Part shown: positions 14,007-22,243 of the stretch, in pieces | Layout: each line of letters begins with the position of its first letter | How positions within the stretch are numbered: the stretch's first letter is position 1 | NCBI RefSeq assembly: GCF_001861355.1 | Contig: NZ_MASN01000060.1 | Location: forward strand, 372,001 to 436,000 | DNA length: 64,000 nt | Direction: 5' to 3' | Source: Natrialba sp. SSL1 | GTDB lineage: Archaea; Halobacteriota; Halobacteria; Halobacteriales; Natrialbaceae | Position numbers and translations under genes: made by a program | Notes under the pieces: model-generated | Told to the model about the DNA's origin: nothing | The model's database searches: none | What the model saw: only the letters and a program-made list of their open reading frames with translations

Positions 14007-15443
14007 TCAGTCAGTAGCGCCGTATACGTCCGTAATCTCGAAGCGAACTCCTCCGTCGTCGCTCTCGGTTGCAGTCACACTCCAGCCGTGGGCGTCGACG
14101 ATATCCTGGACGATTCGAAGACCGAGTCCGGTGCCGTCTGGGTTGGTCGTGTAGCCGGACTCGAAGACGGTCTCGCGCTTATCTGGCGGAATACCGGGCC
14201 CGTCGTCCGCGACGAAGAACCCGTCCTCGAGACGCCCGACTGTGATCGTCACCGTCTCTGTTCCGTCATCTTCGTGAACGCCGTGCTCGAGGCTGTTTCC
14301 GAGGAGGTTCTCGAACAGTTGCACGAGCCGATTCTGGTCCGCCTGAACCCGCACGTCGTTCGGTATCTGAATATCGAGCGTCGCTGCCAGATGAGGCGGC
14401 GGATTCCAGGCGTTCTCGACGGTTTCCACGATCGAGATCGGTTCGCTGTCGTCGATAACGTTCCCGGCTCGAGCGAGCACCAGCAGGTCGTCGATAAGGG
14501 TCTCCATTCGCCGGTGTGCGGCTGCAACGTCGTCGAGAAACGGGACGTCGTCGGCTTCTGCCCGCGCCAGTTCGAGATAGCCCGTTGCGGCGGCAAGCGG
14601 TCCGCGGAGGTCGTGTGAGACGGTTCCCGTAAACTCCTTGAGTCGCTCGTTCTGCCGACTCAGCCGTTGCTCGGCGAGCTTCCGGAGCGTTATGTTGTGC
14701 TGGAAGCCGACGAAGTACGGTGTCTCGCTGTCGTCGATCGGTGCGATCGTCACCTCGTTCCAGAACATCGTCCCGTCGAGACGGTAGTTTCGAACTTCCG
14801 TTGTTATCGGCTCTCGCGCCTCGATTGCCGTTCGCATTCGATCGACCGGCTCCTGCTCGGTTCGTTCTCCCTGCAGAAACCGACAGTTTCGATCGAGTAC
14901 CTCCGCGGCGGGATAGCCGGTCAGGTCGTAAAACTCCTCGTTGGCGTAGACGATCGGATTATCGGGGAGACTCGAGTCGGTTAGTACGATCCCGACCGGT
15001 GCTTCGTCCATTGCGGCGTTCTTGCGCTGGAGTTCTTCGAAGGTACGATGGCGCTCGACTGCGGTTGTAATTCGTGACGCGAGCAGGTCGTACTGTGCCA
15101 TCCCGCGTTCTTTCCGGAGATAATCGGTGATGCCGCGCCGAATCGCCTCGCTTGCAACCTCCTCCGAACCAGCGCCGGTAAACAAAATAACCGGTATCGT
15201 GGGGTCTTCCTCACGAATTGCATCGTGTAGGTCGAGCCCCGACAGCCCCGGCATCTCGTAGTCACAGACGACACAGTCGTACTCTCGCGTTCGAAATCGC
15301 TCCAGTGCAGCCGCGGGATCCGTTTCCGTCTCGACGACGATGTCGTCCTCGAGTCGCTCGAGTACGGTCTCCGTGAGTCCGAGAATAACGCTATCGTCGT
15401 CGACACAGAGCACACGAATCTCGTCGTCCGCTGCCGCCGCCAT
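14007..15443 (-). CDS. Receiver-LOV-histidine kinase (blue-light sensor kinase)
   Basis: Cytosolic hybrid sensor of 478 aa. Residues 8-125 are a receiver domain (acid pocket DDD 15-17, phospho-acceptor Asp61, Lys near 111). Residues about 145-255 are a PAS domain of the LOV class: the photoactive Cys187 is in NCRFLQG, with flavin-contact residues Asn219 (NYR), Asn229 (FWN) and Gln248 (VGFQ). A HisKA helix with His277 (SHDLRGPL) and an HATPase_c domain (Asn383, DDGPGIP at 413-419, GTGLGL) follow. All residues for FMN adduct formation and kinase activity are present. It is the last gene of a three-gene signalling operon, 79 bp after the upstream gene. Confidence 0.92.
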   Translation of the reverse strand: MAAAADDEIRVLCVDDDSVILGLTETVLERLEDDIVVETETDPAAALERFRTREYDCVVCDYEMPGLSGLDLHDAIREEDPTIPVILFTGAGSEEVASEAIRRGITDYLRKERGMAQYDLLASRITTAVERHRTFEELQRKNAAMDEAPVGIVLTDSSLPDNPIVYANEEFYDLTGYPAAEVLDRNCRFLQGERTEQEPVDRMRTAIEAREPITTEVRNYRLDGTMFWNEVTIAPIDDSETPYFVGFQHNITLRKLAEQRLSRQNERLKEFTGTVSHDLRGPLAAATGYLELARAEADDVPFLDDVAAAHRRMETLIDDLLVLARAGNVIDDSEPISIVETVENAWNPPPHLAATLDIQIPNDVRVQADQNRLVQLFENLLGNSLEHGVHEDDGTETVTITVGRLEDGFFVADDGPGIPPDKRETVFESGYTTNPDGTGLGLRIVQDIVDAHGWSVTATESDDGGVRFEITDVYGATD

Positions 15444-15522
15444 ACCGATCCTACGCGGTCGAGATGCTTCAAGCTTCGAGCGCTGCTCTCGAGCTGGGAC
15501 GCCGATGTACTGCGCCCCCCAC

Positions 15523-16791
15523 TCACGCAGCAGCGTTCAATGCAACGCGGAGGACCGGCTCTCCGTCGCCATCAGCCGGGTTGACGACTCCTATCTCGCC
15601 GCCGTAGCGGTCGAGAAACGTCTGCACGAGCACCGACTCGATGTCGCTTCCCTCGTGTAGCTCATCGACCGTCGCTTCGAGCACCGGCTTCTCGAGTGCG
15701 GGGGCGACGAGATCAAACCCGGCGCTGATCCGGTCCCCGCCCCGTCCGTCGGTATTGGCGATGCGTCGGTCGCTTTCGGTGGCTGTTCGTTCGGACTCTG
15801 GCTCCGTCTCAGGCCCCGACCTCGACTCGACGCCCCCCTCCATCTCCTGCTCCGCTCGGAACGGCCGCAGAACGATTCGCTGCTGTGAGACACTGCTGCG
15901 CTCGACGAGCGTATGTACCACCGCTCTGACAACGATTCCGAGAAACCGATCTGCGTGCACCCGAACGTCGGCTTCCGATGTCACATCGCACTCGAACGTC
16001 ACGTCGCCGTAGCGCGTTTCGAGCCGGTCGATCGCAATCTCGAGTACCGGCTCCAGTGCGACGGACTCGAGTACCGGGTTCGGCGTCTCGATCGCCTGCA
16101 CCAGTGCGCTGATCGAGTCCGTGAGGTCGACGATGTGCTCTCCCGCGTCGATGATCCGTGAGACGGTCCGCTTCGTGTCGGGATCGCTCGGCGAGAGCTC
16201 CGCCGCCCAGCCCAGGATTACCGCGGCGTCGTCGCGATACTCGTGGCGGACGTGCCAGTGGAGCAACGCTAACTCGCGGCGCTGGCGTTCGATTTCGGCC
16301 CGCCGGCGCTGGCGCTCGATGGCGTAGCTCACGGTCTGTCCGAGCAGCCGCGGTGTTACGTGCTCTTTCATCAGAAAGTCCTGTGCGCCGTGCTCGACCG
16401 CCCGCTGGCCGAGTTTGGTGTCGTCCATTGCAGTCAGAACGACGACCGGTATCTCGTGCGTGTACTCGAGTACCGAGGTCAGTGTATCGAGGCGACTCGA
16501 GTCGGGGAGGTTCAGATCGAGGAGGATGAGGTCGAACGGGCGGCTGGTCTTCTCGGCTGCGGTCGTGTCGTCTGTTTCGGGCGTGCCGGGCGTGCCGGGT
16601 GTGTCGGGTGTGTCGATCGCGTTTCGAGCCTCCGCCAGCGTTTCGACGTGTTCGACGGCGACCGACTCGAGCGGTGCGTCCTTCAGTTTCGAGAGTTGCT
16701 GGAGCATCGTCTGATACAGCCGCGCCTGCAGGTCGTCGTCCTCGACGAGGAGGATCGACGGGCTGTCTGTTGGTGCGCTCGGTGCTGTCAT
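15523..16791 (-). CDS. Response regulator fused to a degenerate histidine-kinase-like region
   Basis: The 422-aa protein begins with a receiver domain (acid pocket EDDD at 17-20, phospho-acceptor Asp92 in LLDLNLPDS, Lys142). A 25-residue Thr/Pro/Gly insertion (about 60-84, TPGTPGTPE-type) interrupts it. Residues 150-260 resemble the dimerisation helices of a kinase (HWHVRHEYRDDAAVILGWA) but without a convincing H-box. The last 160 residues keep an HATPase-like outline without the N-G-x-G-I-P glycine boxes. It probably cannot bind ATP and acts as a phospho-relay scaffold. Its start overlaps the upstream HxlR gene's stop by 4 nt (ATGA). Confidence 0.82.
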   Translation of the reverse strand: MTAPSAPTDSPSILLVEDDDLQARLYQTMLQQLSKLKDAPLESVAVEHVETLAEARNAIDTPDTPGTPGTPETDDTTAAEKTSRPFDLILLDLNLPDSSRLDTLTSVLEYTHEIPVVVLTAMDDTKLGQRAVEHGAQDFLMKEHVTPRLLGQTVSYAIERQRRRAEIERQRRELALLHWHVRHEYRDDAAVILGWAAELSPSDPDTKRTVSRIIDAGEHIVDLTDSISALVQAIETPNPVLESVALEPVLEIAIDRLETRYGDVTFECDVTSEADVRVHADRFLGIVVRAVVHTLVERSSVSQQRIVLRPFRAEQEMEGGVESRSGPETEPESERTATESDRRIANTDGRGGDRISAGFDLVAPALEKPVLEATVDELHEGSDIESVLVQTFLDRYGGEIGVVNPADGDGEPVLRVALNAAA

Positions 16792-17861
16792 TCGTTTTCA
16801 TCACCGTCTCTGCCGTTGTCTGTGCTGGTGTCGTCAGTCGACTCTTCGGACACGTGGGTTCGGTTCTGGGTGTGATCGTGGTTGTGTTTCTGGTCCCGAT
16901 CGGAGTCGTGGTTGTTGTCCTGGTCCTGCCCGTGTTCGTACTCGTACTCGTACCCGTGCTCTTGCTCGCGGCGCTCTACGTGACTCGTACCCGCAGACTC
17001 CGGTGCCGCTGTCGATCGCAGCCGCCGCCAGGGCGCTCTCGCCTCGGCAGCCGCCGCTCGGTCCTGCTCGAGTGTCGCCAGTTCGCCCGCTACCTGCTGG
17101 TAGGCCTCCGTCGTCGGTGCCGTCGGTCCGAGGTGGCGCTCGACGAACGCCAGTCGGTGACGACGCGAACGAATGTCCCGTCCAATCGAGGACTCCGCTC
17201 TGAGTCGCGTCAACCGCCCAACGGCATCTCGGAGGGTAGTTTTCGAGAGCGGATCGCGGACCAACACGTCTGCCGGAATCGACACATCGTCGGGTGAGAC
17301 ATCGCCTGACGTCACGATCGCGACTGGTGTTCGCTGGCCGGCCGTCTCGAGTGCGGCTGCGATTGCGGGGCCGTCGAGTGTCGGCAGGTCGCTCGCGAGC
17401 ACCGCCACATCGATGCTCTCATCGAGCAAGCGGAGCGCCTCCTTGCCGTCTGCGGCCGTTACCACGTCGTAGTCGGTTTGCAACCACAGCGCGTACAGCT
17501 CCCGGAGCCGCGGATCGTCTTCGGCGAGCAGGACCGTCGGCACGCCGCGCTCGGTTGCGTACGTCGCGTCCCACTCTGCGAGCGCCTCGAGGAGTCCGTA
17601 CAGTTCACGCCCGGCACCGGTCAGTTCGTACTCGACGCGGCGGGGCTGTTCCTGCAGGACGTCACGCGAGACGACGCCGTGGTCGCGCAGTTCCTCCAGA
17701 TTCTCCGACAGCACCTTTCCCGAGATGCCCGCGAGTTCGCGCTTCAGATCGCCGAACCCGAGTCGACCGTTGGTCGCGAGGGCGACGATCAGCCGGGGCT
17801 TCCACTTGGTGCCGAGGATCGCCAGTGCGGTCGACTCCGCTGGGGTCGGGGGAGTGCTCAT
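16788..17861 (-). CDS. HxlR-type winged helix fused to a pseudo-receiver and HalX-like region
   Basis: DNA-binding regulator of 357 aa. Residues 8-100 are an HxlR/MarR-like winged helix (GTKWKPRLIVAL, GDLKRELAGISGKVLSENLEEL, YELTGAGREL). Residues 108-215 are a receiver fold with the acid pocket (EDD 114-116). The phospho-acceptor position is Ala156 (DVAVLASDLP, four before the conserved Pro), so phosphorylation is unlikely. Residues 215-275 look like a HalX helix. The tail is a His/Asp/Asn/Gln/Glu-rich polar repeat. First gene of the signalling operon and divergent from the polysaccharide pair, so it is the obvious candidate to bind the palindrome at 18010. Confidence 0.85.
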   Translation of the reverse strand: MSTPPTPAESTALAILGTKWKPRLIVALATNGRLGFGDLKRELAGISGKVLSENLEELRDHGVVSRDVLQEQPRRVEYELTGAGRELYGLLEALAEWDATYATERGVPTVLLAEDDPRLRELYALWLQTDYDVVTAADGKEALRLLDESIDVAVLASDLPTLDGPAIAAALETAGQRTPVAIVTSGDVSPDDVSIPADVLVRDPLSKTTLRDAVGRLTRLRAESSIGRDIRSRRHRLAFVERHLGPTAPTTEAYQQVAGELATLEQDRAAAAEARAPWRRLRSTAAPESAGTSHVERREQEHGYEYEYEHGQDQDNNHDSDRDQKHNHDHTQNRTHVSEESTDDTSTDNGRDGDENE

Positions 17862-18009
17862 AGGTTGTCAGTGTGGGTCGCGGTCGTGGGTGAGCGTTCG
17901 TCTGTGGGCCATCGGTTGTGGCCATCTCTGCGGGCCAGGCTGTCGATCAGTGGTTGCTGTCCTCGTCACCGATGATAAATAGCGGGCCCGTACGGAACGG
18001 AAAACTGGT

Positions 18010-18025
18010 GTTACCTCGAGGTAAC
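18010..18025. promoter_or_regulatory. Perfect 16-bp palindrome between the signalling and polysaccharide operons
   Basis: GTTACCTCGAGGTAAC is a perfect dyad, and outward CTGG/CCAG arms continue it with a 2-nt bulge. It lies 60 bp before the deacetylase ATG and about 30 bp after a TATA-like GATAAATAG (17974-17982), that is, at the expected transcription start. This position suits a repressor site; HxlR proteins bind such dyads. Confidence 0.6.
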
Positions 18026-18085
18026 CAGCCGAGGCTACATCCAGGTCGCTGACAGTACTGCCTGTCTCGGCTCTCTCCGTCTGGT

Positions 18086-19510
18086 ATGAGTTCACTTCCG
18101 TCCACCTGTCCTGTCTGCCGGTCGCGCACGCTCACTGCAGCGCACATCGACGAACACGACTGCGGCCACGTCGCGCCGGAAGACGACTTTGCGGACGGCT
18201 GTGAGAAGTGCAACCGACAGGTGTCGGCGGACGAGCTCACGCGGCTCCAGACAGTCGGTCGGTGTCTCGAGTGCGATTCGCTGGCAACCGACGATTTCGA
18301 CCTCAATCTGGATGTCGCGCCGCCGCTCCCGACGGTGACGTTTCCGACGCTCCCGTCGCGAGCGGACAACCTGAACTGGCTACCGGCGCGCTACGTCCCC
18401 GAGTCGCGGCTGGCTCGGCAACTGCTGAGTTCGGCGCTCGTCGTGATGGTGCTCCTGGCCGGGATCACGGGGGCGATATCGGTGATGCCGATGCTCGAGA
18501 GCGAGCCGGCGACGGTTGCAGCGGGCGAACCGGAGTGGGAGGAGTACGACTCCATCGTGCTGTTCAGAAACGACGACGTGCAGGCCTGGTACAATCAGGA
18601 CGAACTCCGGGACGTGAATCAGGTGTTCATCGACGAGGAGGTGCCGGTGACGTTGGGAATCATCCCCGATACGAACGGCGAGGCACCGTTGACCGACGAC
18701 CCCGACCTCTGTACGTACCTGCAGTCGCTCGAGACCGACTACCCCGGCCAGTTCGAGATGGCACTGCACGGCTACACCCACGAGCCGGTGACGGAGTTCT
18801 ACGGTGCGAGCGAGTTCGGCGACCTCCCGGCTGACGAGCAACGCGAGCGGCTCGAAGCCGGCGAGGAACTGCTCGATGAGTGTGTTCACTCGCCGTCCTC
18901 GACGTTCATCCCGCCGATGAATACCTACGACGAGACGACGGTGTCGGTTCTCGAGGACGCGAACTACACCACCGTTTCGGGTGGCTCGTGGTTTACTGAT
19001 GCGCATTTCGATGGGAACGAGACTGTCTTCGAAGACGGTGACCTCGTCCACATCCCCGAAACCCAGCCGTTCGAGAACTGGACAGCCTACGAGGAACGGG
19101 TGCTCGAGGCGGAGGAGTCGGCTGATAACAACGAATCCGACGAAATAGTCGTCCCGTTCGAGGACCTCGAAACACTCACCGACTCGTTCGACGAGGCCCA
19201 CGCGGCGAACGACGTCCACGTCGTGATGTTCCACTACCAGTACTTCACGACCGACGAGCGCGTCGAGCAACTCGAGTTACTCGTCCAGCACACGAAAGAC
19301 GAGGACGCGGGCTTTCTGACCATCGAGCAGTTCGCACTCGGACTCGAGACGGGGACGGTCGAGCAGACGGACGACGGCTGGCGCGTCCTCGAGCCCGCTC
19401 ACGTCGCGATTGCGGCGGAGCAAGCCGAGGCGGCCGCTGCGGACCGCGGTACCGAGGACGGAGATGCTGAACAATCGCTTGCCAACATAACACAGAGGGT
19501 GGGCCGATGA
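18086..19510 (+). CDS. Membrane-anchored polysaccharide-deacetylase-like protein (DUF2334/NodB-like) with N-terminal zinc ribbons
   Basis: Probable carbohydrate-modifying enzyme. The 474-aa protein starts with two cysteine pairs (CPVC 8-11 with Cys26; CEKC 39-42 with CLEC 60-63), that is, zinc ribbons. One transmembrane helix follows at about 110-135, then a NodB/DUF2334-like domain: catalytic-Asp motif RNDDVQAW (161-168), metal-binding HGYTHE (228-233), the STFIPPMNTY substrate loop and a late MFHYQYFT. The ribbons should stay cytosolic and the enzyme domain extracellular. It overlaps the GT2 gene by 4 nt, matching the PgaB/IcaB plus PgaC/IcaA pairing. Deacetylase activity is inferred; the exact substrate is unknown. 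Confidence 0.82.
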   Translation: MSSLPSTCPVCRSRTLTAAHIDEHDCGHVAPEDDFADGCEKCNRQVSADELTRLQTVGRCLECDSLATDDFDLNLDVAPPLPTVTFPTLPSRADNLNWLPARYVPESRLARQLLSSALVVMVLLAGITGAISVMPMLESEPATVAAGEPEWEEYDSIVLFRNDDVQAWYNQDELRDVNQVFIDEEVPVTLGIIPDTNGEAPLTDDPDLCTYLQSLETDYPGQFEMALHGYTHEPVTEFYGASEFGDLPADEQRERLEAGEELLDECVHSPSSTFIPPMNTYDETTVSVLEDANYTTVSGGSWFTDAHFDGNETVFEDGDLVHIPETQPFENWTAYEERVLEAEESADNNESDEIVVPFEDLETLTDSFDEAHAANDVHVVMFHYQYFTTDERVEQLELLVQHTKDEDAGFLTIEQFALGLETGTVEQTDDGWRVLEPAHVAIAAEQAEAAAADRGTEDGDAEQSLANITQRVGR

Positions 19511-21156
19511 ACCCCATCGTGATCGCGCCGGTCGCCCTCGGCCGCGACCGCGCACGGTTCGCCGTCCGACGGATCCAGTCGGTCAAGTGGCGCTCGGTCG
19601 CGCTGTTTCTCTCCGCACTGGTGCCGTTCTGGCTCCTGATCGACGTGATGGCCCCACAGACGCTGTACGCCATCGCACTCCTCGTCGTCCTGTTACTGCT
19701 CTATCTCGGCTGGTCGTACTACGTGGTCGAACGCGCCACACGGTTCAGAGCGGTCTTCGGAACGCGCGGGTTGGCAGTCGCCGTCACCTGCTACATCGGA
19801 CTCATCATCTGGCTGGGCTGGCTCAGGCCATCACTGCTTGCGCTCGTCCACCTCGGGGCCGTCGTGTTGATTTTCGTCTACTACTGGTTCATCGCGTTCA
19901 TCGCGTTCTTCCACGACCAGGTCGGCCGCTCGAAGTACGTCCCAAAACCGCCCTACCCACAGCTCACCGTCCTCATTCCGGCTTACAACGAGGAAGGCTA
20001 CGTCGGCCGAACGATCCAGTCACTGCTCGATACTGACTACCCCGCAGACGCACTCGAGATTGTCGCGGTCGACGACGGTAGCACCGACGGCACGTTCGCC
20101 GAGGCGAGCGCCTTCGCCGCCGCGAGCGAGCGGGTCTCGGTCGTCAGCAAGACGAACGGCGGCAAGTACTCCGCGCTAAACTACGGCCTCCTGTTTGCCT
20201 CCGGCGACATCATCGTCACCGTCGACGCCGACAGTATCGTCGACCCAGACGCCCTGAAACACATCGTCGCACCGTTCGCCGCCGACGAGGACATCGGTGC
20301 CGTCGCGAGCAACGTCACCATCTGGAACCGCGACTCGCTCGTCACTCGCTGCCAGCAACTCGAGTACACCATCGGTGTGAACATCTACCGGCGCGCGCTC
20401 GATTACTTCGGCATCGTGATGGTCGTCCCCGGCTGTCTGGGTGCGTACCGCCGCGAGGTGCTCTCGGAGGTGTTCGCCTACGATCCGGATACCCTCACGG
20501 AGGACTTCGACGTGACGATGAAGGTGCTTCGGGCCGGCTACCGCGTCTCTGTGAGTGATGCGCGGGTCTACACCGAAGCGCCGGCGACGTGGCACGACCT
20601 CTACCGTCAGCGCCTGCGCTGGTACCGCGGCAACTACATGACGATTATCAAGCACTGGTCGGTCGTGACGGACTCGTCGTACGGCTACTTGAACCGGATC
20701 GCGCTCCCGTTCCGGCTGGTCGAGATGTTCTTCCTGCCGCTTGCGAGTTTCGTCGTGCTGGCGTACATCGCCTGGCTGATCGCTGCCGGTCACGTGCTCA
20801 CCGTGCTCGCGGTGTTCGTTTTCTTCACGAGCATCGTCTTCCTGATCGCGGCGCTCGGCATCCAGATCGAGGGCGAGGACTGGCGGTTGCTCGTCTACGC
20901 GCCGCTGCTCGTCGTCGGCTACAAGCAGTTTCACGACGCGCTCAACGTCAAGTGTCTGCTCGACGTGCTCACGGCCCCAGAACTCGGCTGGACGCGCGCA
21001 GCCCGTATCGAGCAGGTTGTGGCAAGCCCGGACGCAGGTGCGATCCCAGAGCCGACTGCGAGTGCATCGCCGTCTCCAGCCCCGACTCCTGAGGCAGGAC
21101 CACCGACAGAAACGGAGACAGAGAGCGAGACCGTCGCCGATACGGACTCGAAGTAA
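19507..21156 (+). CDS. Processive family-2 glycosyltransferase (polysaccharide synthase, IcaA/PgaC/HasA type)
   Basis: Membrane synthase of 549 aa that should polymerise a UDP-sugar and extrude the chain. Several transmembrane helices (about 32-48, 52-72, 90-106, 115-135) precede the GT-A domain with DDGS (189-192), DAD (240-242), TEDFD (331-335) and QRLRW (368-372), the D,D,D,Q(Q/R)xRW signature of processive enzymes. More helices follow (about 395-455), then a Pro/Glu/Thr tail. Start codon and stop codon of the preceding deacetylase-like gene overlap (ATGA), so they are translationally coupled. Likely product: an N-acetylhexosamine exopolysaccharide. Confidence 0.9.
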   Translation: MNPIVIAPVALGRDRARFAVRRIQSVKWRSVALFLSALVPFWLLIDVMAPQTLYAIALLVVLLLLYLGWSYYVVERATRFRAVFGTRGLAVAVTCYIGLIIWLGWLRPSLLALVHLGAVVLIFVYYWFIAFIAFFHDQVGRSKYVPKPPYPQLTVLIPAYNEEGYVGRTIQSLLDTDYPADALEIVAVDDGSTDGTFAEASAFAAASERVSVVSKTNGGKYSALNYGLLFASGDIIVTVDADSIVDPDALKHIVAPFAADEDIGAVASNVTIWNRDSLVTRCQQLEYTIGVNIYRRALDYFGIVMVVPGCLGAYRREVLSEVFAYDPDTLTEDFDVTMKVLRAGYRVSVSDARVYTEAPATWHDLYRQRLRWYRGNYMTIIKHWSVVTDSSYGYLNRIALPFRLVEMFFLPLASFVVLAYIAWLIAAGHVLTVLAVFVFFTSIVFLIAALGIQIEGEDWRLLVYAPLLVVGYKQFHDALNVKCLLDVLTAPELGWTRAARIEQVVASPDAGAIPEPTASASPSPAPTPEAGPPTETETESETVADTDSK

Positions 21157-21322
21157 TACTGCCGGACAGAACTATTCGCAGATCGGTCGCGCTACTGCGG
21201 CCGTTCCCTTCGGGGATGGCCGCGACTTCGCGATCGACTGTTCACTGACCGTTTGCCGGACCATGCGGGTCCCGTGCTGTGCAGGCACGATACCCTTCCC
21301 GCCACTCCCACTACGCCCGGCT

Positions 21323-22243
21323 ATGAGCCCCACATTCACGGACGACGATGTCGGGAAGGCCGTCGAGAGCGCGAACGGCGACTCGCTCGGCATCGTGGTC
21401 TCCGTCGAGCCGGAAACCGCGTACGTCGACCCGGATCCGGAAACCACCGACTCGATCAAGGCCGTCCTCGACTGGGGGAGCGAGTCGGAGGGCGCGGTGC
21501 CGGTGACGGACGACGCAGTCGAGCAGGTGACGGAGGACGCGATTCGACTGACTCCCGCTGTTCCAGAGGAGAGCATCACGAGCGACGAGCCTCGAGACGC
21601 CGGCCGAACCGCTGAGCGGCGAGCGGACCGACAGGCGGCGACGGGCGCTGAGCGCGGCAACGACGAGTACACGCCCGGCGAACCGGTTTCGGGCGACACT
21701 ACCGAATCCGAAACCGGTATCGACGGCACCGAGGAGGGCCCCGGCACGACGGCGGGCGACACCTCAGAGCCGATGATCGGCGACGAGCACTACGACGATC
21801 TGGAGGACGAGCCACGCGTGGATCCGGACGAGCAACTGGAAGCGAAACCGGAAGCGGGTGAGACGGAACCAGCAGAGCGAGGCGAGACTGACGCTTCCGA
21901 ACTGTCGGCTGACGAGCCACAACCCGACGAACTAGACGCCGTCGAGGACGAGGCCAGCCGCGGACTCGAGGTCGACCCCACCGAGCTGACGGACCGCGAT
22001 GCAGACGCCGAAATCGACCCCAGCGAAGATCTGGGCCAGCGAACGGATGCGGAAGTCGAACCCGAAATGGACCTCGAAGAGCGCTCGGATGCCGACGTCG
22101 CGCCGGGTCATATGGACGAACGCCGCCGTGACGACGCCGAGGTAGATCCGGAGCGAATCGATTCCGAAGTCGGTGAGGGGGCTGGCGCCGATGATGAGCG
22201 GGCAAGCGAAGAGGAAGATGACGACACGTCGTCTTCACAGTAA
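21323..22243 (+). CDS. Acidic protein with N-terminal PRC-barrel-like domain
   Basis: Cytosolic protein of 306 aa. Residues 1-75 look like a small beta-barrel of the PRC type (DDDVGKAVESANGDSLGIVV, then DDAVEQVTEDAIRLTP). The remaining 230 residues are extremely acidic low-complexity sequence with a loose repeat DAEV-DP-x-(D/E)-(L/I). The ATG at 21323 was chosen because it begins the recognisable domain; the frame is open for 300 nt upstream but runs into the glycosyltransferase gene. PRC barrels in haloarchaea occur in RNA-processing and partitioning proteins; no specific role is evident. Confidence 0.72.
   Translation: MSPTFTDDDVGKAVESANGDSLGIVVSVEPETAYVDPDPETTDSIKAVLDWGSESEGAVPVTDDAVEQVTEDAIRLTPAVPEESITSDEPRDAGRTAERRADRQAATGAERGNDEYTPGEPVSGDTTESETGIDGTEEGPGTTAGDTSEPMIGDEHYDDLEDEPRVDPDEQLEAKPEAGETEPAERGETDASELSADEPQPDELDAVEDEASRGLEVDPTELTDRDADAEIDPSEDLGQRTDAEVEPEMDLEERSDADVAPGHMDERRRDDAEVDPERIDSEVGEGAGADDERASEEEDDDTSSSQ

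Follow-up and report, generated by a model that had tools for sequence, protein, structure and literature searches.

In a 64,000-nucleotide stretch of the Natrialba sp. SSL1 genome (the whole of which is referred to as the window), five adjacent genes at positions 14007–21156 on balance appear to form one regulated cassette, in which a signalling module controls a divergent polysaccharide synthase pair through an operator and, in Natrialba, probably receives its input from a histidine kinase with a LOV domain (LOV-HK). We regard the genes as one functional unit because they are present or absent as a block, because a dyad is found at fixed distance from the synthase pair, because this putative operator stays on the synthase side where the two parts lie 3.8 kb apart, and because the LOV kinase is found only here. 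The features of the locus are as follows, with the evidence in brackets:

14007..15443, minus strand: REC-LOV-HisKA-HATPase histidine kinase (LOV-HK), predicted blue-light sensor (open reading frame (ORF), Pfam, motif check)
15523..16791, minus strand: REC-DHp-degenerate HATPase protein (REC-HK), an LvrB-like hybrid response regulator turned pseudokinase (ORF, Pfam, fold search)
16788..17861, minus strand: protein with HxlR winged helix, pseudo-receiver and HalX-like C-terminal region, predicted DNA-binding regulator (ORF, Pfam, alignment)
17974..17980, minus strand: TATA-like box of the HxlR operon, GATAAAT (TTTATC on the minus strand) (alignment, spacing table)
18010..18025, no strand assigned: perfect 16-bp dyad GTTACCTCGAGGTAAC, putative operator, centre 68 bp upstream of the DUF2334 start codon
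18036..18060, plus strand: conserved block TACATCCAGGTCGCTGACAGTACTG, probable weak core promoter of the DUF2334-GT2 operon (alignment; promoter role predicted)
18086..19510, plus strand: membrane-anchored DUF2334 protein with NodB-like domain (ORF, Pfam, motif check)
19507..21156, plus strand: processive GT2 synthase, closest NCBIfam model PgaC/IcaA (ORF, Pfam, motifs)

The five ORFs, their divergent layout and their ATGA overlaps, all described in the initial annotation of this DNA, were found at these positions. The 4-bp overlaps join the HxlR and REC-HK genes (16788–16791) and the DUF2334 and GT2 genes (19507–19510), and 79 bp separate the REC-HK gene from the LOV-HK gene. Pfam recognises HxlR and a receiver in the regulator, a receiver alone in REC-HK, a receiver with PAS, HisKA and HATPase domains in LOV-HK, DUF2334 with a weak Polysacc_deac_1 match in the fourth protein, and GT2 in the fifth.

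The cassette is gained and lost as a block

We surveyed 125 genomes of the family, 121 of which were taken in by the search for DUF2334 orthologues. HxlR orthologues are present in 16 of the 125 genomes and DUF2334 orthologues in 15; the two co-occur in 14 genomes, each time at a single locus and in divergent orientation, so that the co-conservation on which the earlier proposal had been made to depend does hold. The named carriers of the HxlR gene comprise Natrialba hulunbeirensis and N. chahannaoensis within the genus, and Natronococcus spp., Natronorubrum texcoconense, Salinadaptatus halalkaliphilus and Halobiforma nitratireducens outside it. These named species come for the most part from soda lakes or alkaline habitats.

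Three other Natrialba genomes examined (L167–L169) lack all five genes. At the syntenic site, PCNA lies about 100 bp from the orthologue of the gene at window positions 21251–22243 (g21251), and the flanks match both sides of the block in the window. Because all five genes are absent together at this site, the block between PCNA and g21251/RlmE is a unit of gain and loss. The g21251 gene, which adjoins the cassette in the window and encodes an acidic protein without Pfam match, is not a member, since it is present in the three Natrialba genomes that lack the cassette.

The block has also been found in another setting. In Salinadaptatus (L068), the four core genes stand together with neither PCNA nor RlmE nearby. 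Salinadaptatus and Natronorubrum texcoconense cluster in both the HxlR tree (support 100/99) and the GT2 tree (92/93), and the pairing of two different genera in both trees suggests that the cassette genes were transferred jointly. The same two organisms have a second, distant GT2 synthase (27–30% identity) adjoining REC-HK (L063:5229-6665 in N. texcoconense and L068:11211-12806 in Salinadaptatus), and their cassettes may represent one transferred version.

A conserved dyad at the synthase promoter

The perfect 16-bp dyad that the initial annotation had placed at the promoter of the polysaccharide pair was confirmed at 18010–18025. GTTACCTCGAGGTAAC is the sole match in the window at up to three mismatches, a tolerance at which 0.19 matches are expected by chance. 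In each of the 11 compact loci, 68–71 bp separate the centre of the dyad from the start of DUF2334, and an invariant 44 bp separate it from the GATAAAY box of the HxlR operon. Between this box and the start of HxlR there are 41 to 120 bp, depending on the locus. The element is thus conserved, but its perfect 16-bp form is confined to Natrialba, where the eight pairs are perfect in three genomes and carry one central mismatch in N. chahannaoensis. Relatives outside the genus have an imperfect 18-bp near-dyad, GGTAACCTCGAGGTAACC, with eight of nine pairs formed in the best cases and one asymmetric pair, by which it can be read also as a direct repeat of GGTAAC. In L064, both arms have undergone a compensating change, with CTTCGAAG replacing CCTCGAGG.

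In a held-out position-weight test, the element was detected in 12 of 12 HxlR-linked DUF2334 promoters (p≤0.001 each), its presence in orthologous gaps having been a further prediction of the initial annotation, and in none of the five promoters of DUF2334-GT2 pairs without HxlR; these five are more divergent or rearranged, so that absence there is weaker evidence than presence in the linked promoters. In L070–L072, where HxlR and DUF2334 lie about 3.8 kb apart, the alignment shows the element at the DUF2334 end of the interval and no dyad at the HxlR end. Seven genomes were searched at up to two mismatches, and this locus was the top match in each. The nearest rival site, elsewhere in Natronorubrum, has one mismatch, and the locus there is also one mismatch from the searched pattern. 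A regulon-wide operator was accordingly rejected, as the seven genomes contain no comparably good matches.

The simplest inference from this pattern is that the dyad would be dedicated to the HxlR regulator, the cassette's sole predicted DNA-binding protein, which would act there on the synthase promoter and, in compact loci, possibly on its own promoter too. The GATAAAY box was rejected as TATA box of the synthase operon, because in L070–L072 it is missing on the DUF2334 side while AATAAGT is present on the HxlR side. Downstream of the dyad there is a conserved TAC...CAGTACTG block alone and no TATA-like box. Since the dyad lies just upstream of a promoter without a good TATA box, the HxlR protein is more likely an activator than a repressor, and the putative operator is best read as resembling an upstream activating sequence.

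A dyad centre constantly 44 bp from the TATA-like box of HxlR, as in the 11 compact loci, would also be expected if the dyad were mainly autoregulatory for the HxlR operon and control of the synthase incidental. Two observations make this quite improbable: the spacing is fixed towards the DUF2334 start and variable towards the HxlR start, and in L070–L072 it is the distant DUF2334 side, not the HxlR side, that keeps the dyad.

A regulator that lost its phosphorylation site in Natrialba

Outside Natrialba, the receiver of the HxlR protein keeps its phospho-Asp in 13 of 14 orthologues, both outgroups included (the exception, G077, has Asn), and its Lys in all 14. In all four Natrialba orthologues, which form a single clade with 100/100 support, the phospho-Asp is replaced by Ala and the Lys by Asp. 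The protein of the window therefore lacks the residue pair of a canonical response regulator and is a pseudo-receiver protein, in which the receiver fold is conserved and the key phosphotransfer residues are gone. The non-phosphorylatable regulator of the initial annotation is hence correct for Natrialba but not in general, being a derived trait.

Its proposed HxlR–pseudo-receiver–HalX architecture held for the first two domains. Pfam matched HalX (PF08663) in none of the 16 orthologues, and this part is suggested by the resemblance of the C-terminal region to a REC-HalX-like paralogue and by the HxlR-REC-HalX architecture catalogued in a haloarchaeal census (PMC5847659). With those regulators the protein shares the HxlR winged helix, the receiver (phosphorylatable in the orthologues) and an alpha-helical C-terminus; it differs in that the Natrialba receiver has lost phospho-Asp and Lys, that HalX is not recognised by Pfam, and that a specific operator and a target operon can be proposed. 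Reviewed pseudo-receiver response regulators likewise have a receiver fold without phospho-Asp and share an operon with two-component proteins that are otherwise normal (cf. CmrRST; PMC12632262), whereas the present case is archaeal and has phosphorylatable orthologues at nearly the same operator.

A receiver-pseudokinase encoded between sensor kinase and regulator

All 16 aligned REC-HK orthologues retain Asp, Thr and Lys of the receiver, and most of them, among these every Natrialba row, also retain the DHp His. The protein of the window keeps these residues and has lost the N and G boxes. Pfam recognises HATPase_c in 13 of the 16 orthologues, the window protein being one of the misses; the other two are most likely two further Natrialba rows, because only those rows have no recognisable N or G box. 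By eye, the ATPase boxes of REC-HK in L063, L064, L068, L069 and L074 are also damaged. The degenerate kinase of the initial annotation is therefore real here but a derived trait of Natrialba rather than a property of the family at large. That the presence of LOV-HK strictly causes the loss of the REC-HK ATPase was rejected, since L064, L068 and L074 show decay without LOV-HK, and G077 combines LOV-HK with intact boxes.

A model of the Natrialba protein (mean predicted local-distance difference test (pLDDT) 76) matched the fold of Leptospira LvrB, followed by RetS and the pseudokinase DivL. DivL of Caulobacter and RetS of Pseudomonas are atypical histidine kinases that work by protein contact. 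They share the kinase-like fold but are bacterial and have other partners, and the Natrialba protein has its own N-terminal receiver. The LvrA/LvrB pair of Leptospira (hybrid histidine kinase and REC-HK; PDB 8vc9) similarly combines a histidine kinase and a kinase with an N-terminal receiver in one operon, although LvrB keeps kinase activity and the Natrialba protein has no ATP-binding boxes. LvrA phosphorylates the receiver of LvrB (PMC5863495), which constitutes a precedent for transfer from the LOV kinase to the REC-DHp protein.

A LOV kinase as one of several probable inputs

The PAS domain of LOV-HK is a LOV domain, with a YtvA-LOV chimera as top PDB match (4gcz, E=3e-50; YtvA LOV, 3e-37). 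The photoactive-Cys motif NCRFLQ is present in six of seven orthologues and reads NCRLLQ in L060, and the HisKA His and the N, G1 and G2 boxes are all intact, so that the protein is probably a blue-light sensor kinase. Orthologues (E<1e-140) were found in seven of the 125 genomes, all of them carriers of HxlR and all at this locus; six adjoin the REC-HK gene and one lies about 4 kb off (L063). Archaeal LOV kinases are known, an archaeal LOV has been described from Lake Diamante, and REC/PAS/HK architectures have been noted in haloarchaea (PMC12202551). The Natrialba protein has the LOV core with NCRFLQ in common with YtvA-type LOV proteins, bacterial LOV histidine kinases and the Lake Diamante LOV, and differs in being tied to a defined neighbouring target operon.

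Loci without LOV-HK either have no such kinase, or have other kinase and REC-PAS genes nearby (L068), or have a PAS-GAF histidine kinase of more than 1,100 residues, whose gene is inserted in the space between HxlR and DUF2334 and runs in the HxlR direction (L070:12351-16205, L071:7532-10939 and L072:6920-10480). Because most relatives have no LOV kinase here and three have the large PAS-GAF kinase, light would serve as input in some lineages, among them Natrialba, but does not belong to the signalling module as such. The claim that light sets exopolysaccharide output thus survives in part: the signalling operon and the synthase pair are best regarded as one functional unit with a dedicated operator, but light is not its general logic. 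As a side observation, a small stand-alone receiver is encoded between HxlR and REC-HK in L072 and in the outgroup loci L160 and L161.

Some LOV proteins respond to redox. LOV-HK might accordingly sense redox or oxygen, or feed another response regulator instead of gating the operon by light; its own receiver and its optional presence leave room for other partners. Its orthologues stand, however, only beside the HxlR regulator among the 125 genomes and belong to the block that is gained and lost, and we regard this alternative as rather unlikely compared with a blue-light input to the cassette.

Repurposing or decay of the Natrialba relay

The missing phospho-Asp, Lys and HATPase boxes could also mean that the Natrialba relay is decaying, leaving a constitutively active regulator that has lost its light input. 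In N. chahannaoensis, an insertion of about 1 kb, resembling a transposable element and with a seemingly transposase-like product, splits the REC-DHp gene (L061:11060-12090) in an otherwise intact cassette. The ratio of nonsynonymous to synonymous substitution rates (dN/dS) argues in the opposite direction: the pseudo-receiver (0.09–0.15) is as constrained as the HxlR helix-turn-helix (0.12–0.22), the ATPase remnant has a value of about 0.25, and the LOV domain (0.03–0.12) is the most or nearly the most constrained part of a kinase that is fully intact. Decay is exemplified by G077, which has lost the synthase and carries Asp-to-Asn in the HxlR receiver and Asp-to-Glu at the phospho-site of the LOV-HK receiver. 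We thus consider decay improbable, though not negligible, in Natrialba, whose altered domains look repurposed rather than dying, because purifying selection persists.

The synthase pair and its product

The initial annotation of a deacetylase-like gene paired with a processive GT2 gene is borne out by the motifs. The GT2 protein has DDG, DAD, TED and QRLRW together with flanking transmembrane (TM) helices, as in processive GT2 enzymes; a low-confidence model (pLDDT 55, 14-row alignment), which was not used for fold search, agrees on the helices. The DUF2334 protein combines a NodB-like domain with a single TM helix and a pair of Cys motifs resembling zinc ribbons. The metal motif of the NodB-like domain, D-D (RNDD) and H-x3-H (HGYTHE, HGTTHE, HGFTHE and similar), is found in 19 of 19 rows. 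As in pgaABCD/icaADBC, a processive GT2, for which PgaC/IcaA is the best family model, is partnered by a deacetylase of the NodB superfamily; unlike there, the archaeal system has two genes only, DUF2334 takes the place of PgaB/IcaB, and the score is below the cut-off. Our best guess for the product is a partly deacetylated N-acetylhexosamine polymer. Exopolysaccharide-like material has been reported for N. magadii (PMC3403918). In another family, DUF2334-GT2 pairs (L163:10801-11889 and L164:11133-12218) are accompanied by genes for a conserved 216-residue protein and a single-domain receiver; the same enzymes may there be under another regulator.

Evidence against a single cassette

Several observations weigh against this interpretation. 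The modules are separable: G077 keeps the signalling operon and the operator with DUF2334 reduced to a remnant of about 90 bases (L073:8290-8480), G043 keeps the signalling genes alone, and G101 has the synthase pair behind a rearranged upstream region; the outgroups G172 and G407 carry HxlR and REC-HK with no DUF2334-GT2 within 8 kb. LOV-HK is present at only seven of 16 loci, and the ATPase decay in L064, L068 and L074, which have no LOV-HK nearby, speaks against a replacement of the ATPase by the LOV kinase. The interrupted gene of N. chahannaoensis indicates that the REC-DHp step may be dispensable there. On the enzyme side, GT2 scores 191 bits against PgaC/IcaA (TIGR03937), for which the cut-off is 422, although this is still the best of 31 families, and no solved relative of the DUF2334 protein was found by sequence search.

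The genomes holding one half, and the outgroups, would also be expected if two independent units shared the site, with the signalling operon regulating something else and the synthase pair merely adjacent. The PCNA, PriL, RlmE and TatC neighbours are conserved as well, and synteny alone could account for the adjacency. Against this stand the joint absence of five genes at the same site in three Natrialba genomes, the Salinadaptatus block, which keeps its four core genes away from PCNA/RlmE, and the operator, which is restricted to DUF2334 promoters of HxlR-containing loci and remains on the DUF2334 side even across a distance of 3.8 kb to HxlR. Two independent units are therefore unlikely, and we continue with the single cassette.

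A possible blue-light switch without terminal phosphotransfer

In the proposed mechanism, a dimer of the HxlR–(pseudo-)receiver–HalX protein would bind the dyad and control the divergent DUF2334-GT2 operon, most likely as activator, and the two enzymes would build and partly deacetylate a surface polymer of N-acetylhexosamine, similar to poly-N-acetylglucosamine or related to it. In Natrialba, blue light would alter the autophosphorylation of LOV-HK, which in turn would phosphorylate the intact receiver of the REC-DHp pseudokinase, and the pseudokinase would relay the signal. The final step is probably a regulated protein–protein contact, because neither the REC-DHp protein nor the HxlR pseudo-receiver can perform ordinary phosphotransfer; in many relatives, REC-HK and the HxlR receiver look able to do so. 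Taken together, these steps would amount to an archaeal blue-light switch whose last steps dispense with phosphotransfer (LOV kinase, receiver-pseudokinase, contact, pseudo-receiver HxlR activator) and which evolved in Natrialba from a canonical phosphorelay kept by relatives at nearly the same operator. We put this complete chain forward tentatively, as a possibility with less than an even chance.

We found no report of the cassette or its operator in the open-access papers searched. Singly, the HxlR-REC-HalX architecture (PMC5847659), archaeal LOV kinases (PMC12202551) and pseudo-receivers (PMC12632262) were already known; new are a dedicated cassette with an operator and a swappable sensor, and the Natrialba-specific shift from a phosphorylatable to a non-phosphorylatable regulator at nearly the same putative operator. 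The authors of a 2025 review called bacterial pseudo-receiver mechanisms a mystery and knew of no functional work on an archaeal pseudo-receiver in the literature (PMC12632262). The present locus pairs a pseudo-receiver regulator with one predicted operator and a predicted target operon, and the regulator's orthologues at nearly the same site are phosphorylatable; the question therefore becomes testable by orthologue swap or residue restoration. If true, the non-phosphotransfer switch would constitute a natural before-and-after series for the takeover by a pseudo-receiver, and the cassette would assign concrete target genes to a haloarchaeal LOV photoreceptor and offer regulated access to an archaeal surface polymer that is as yet uncharacterised.

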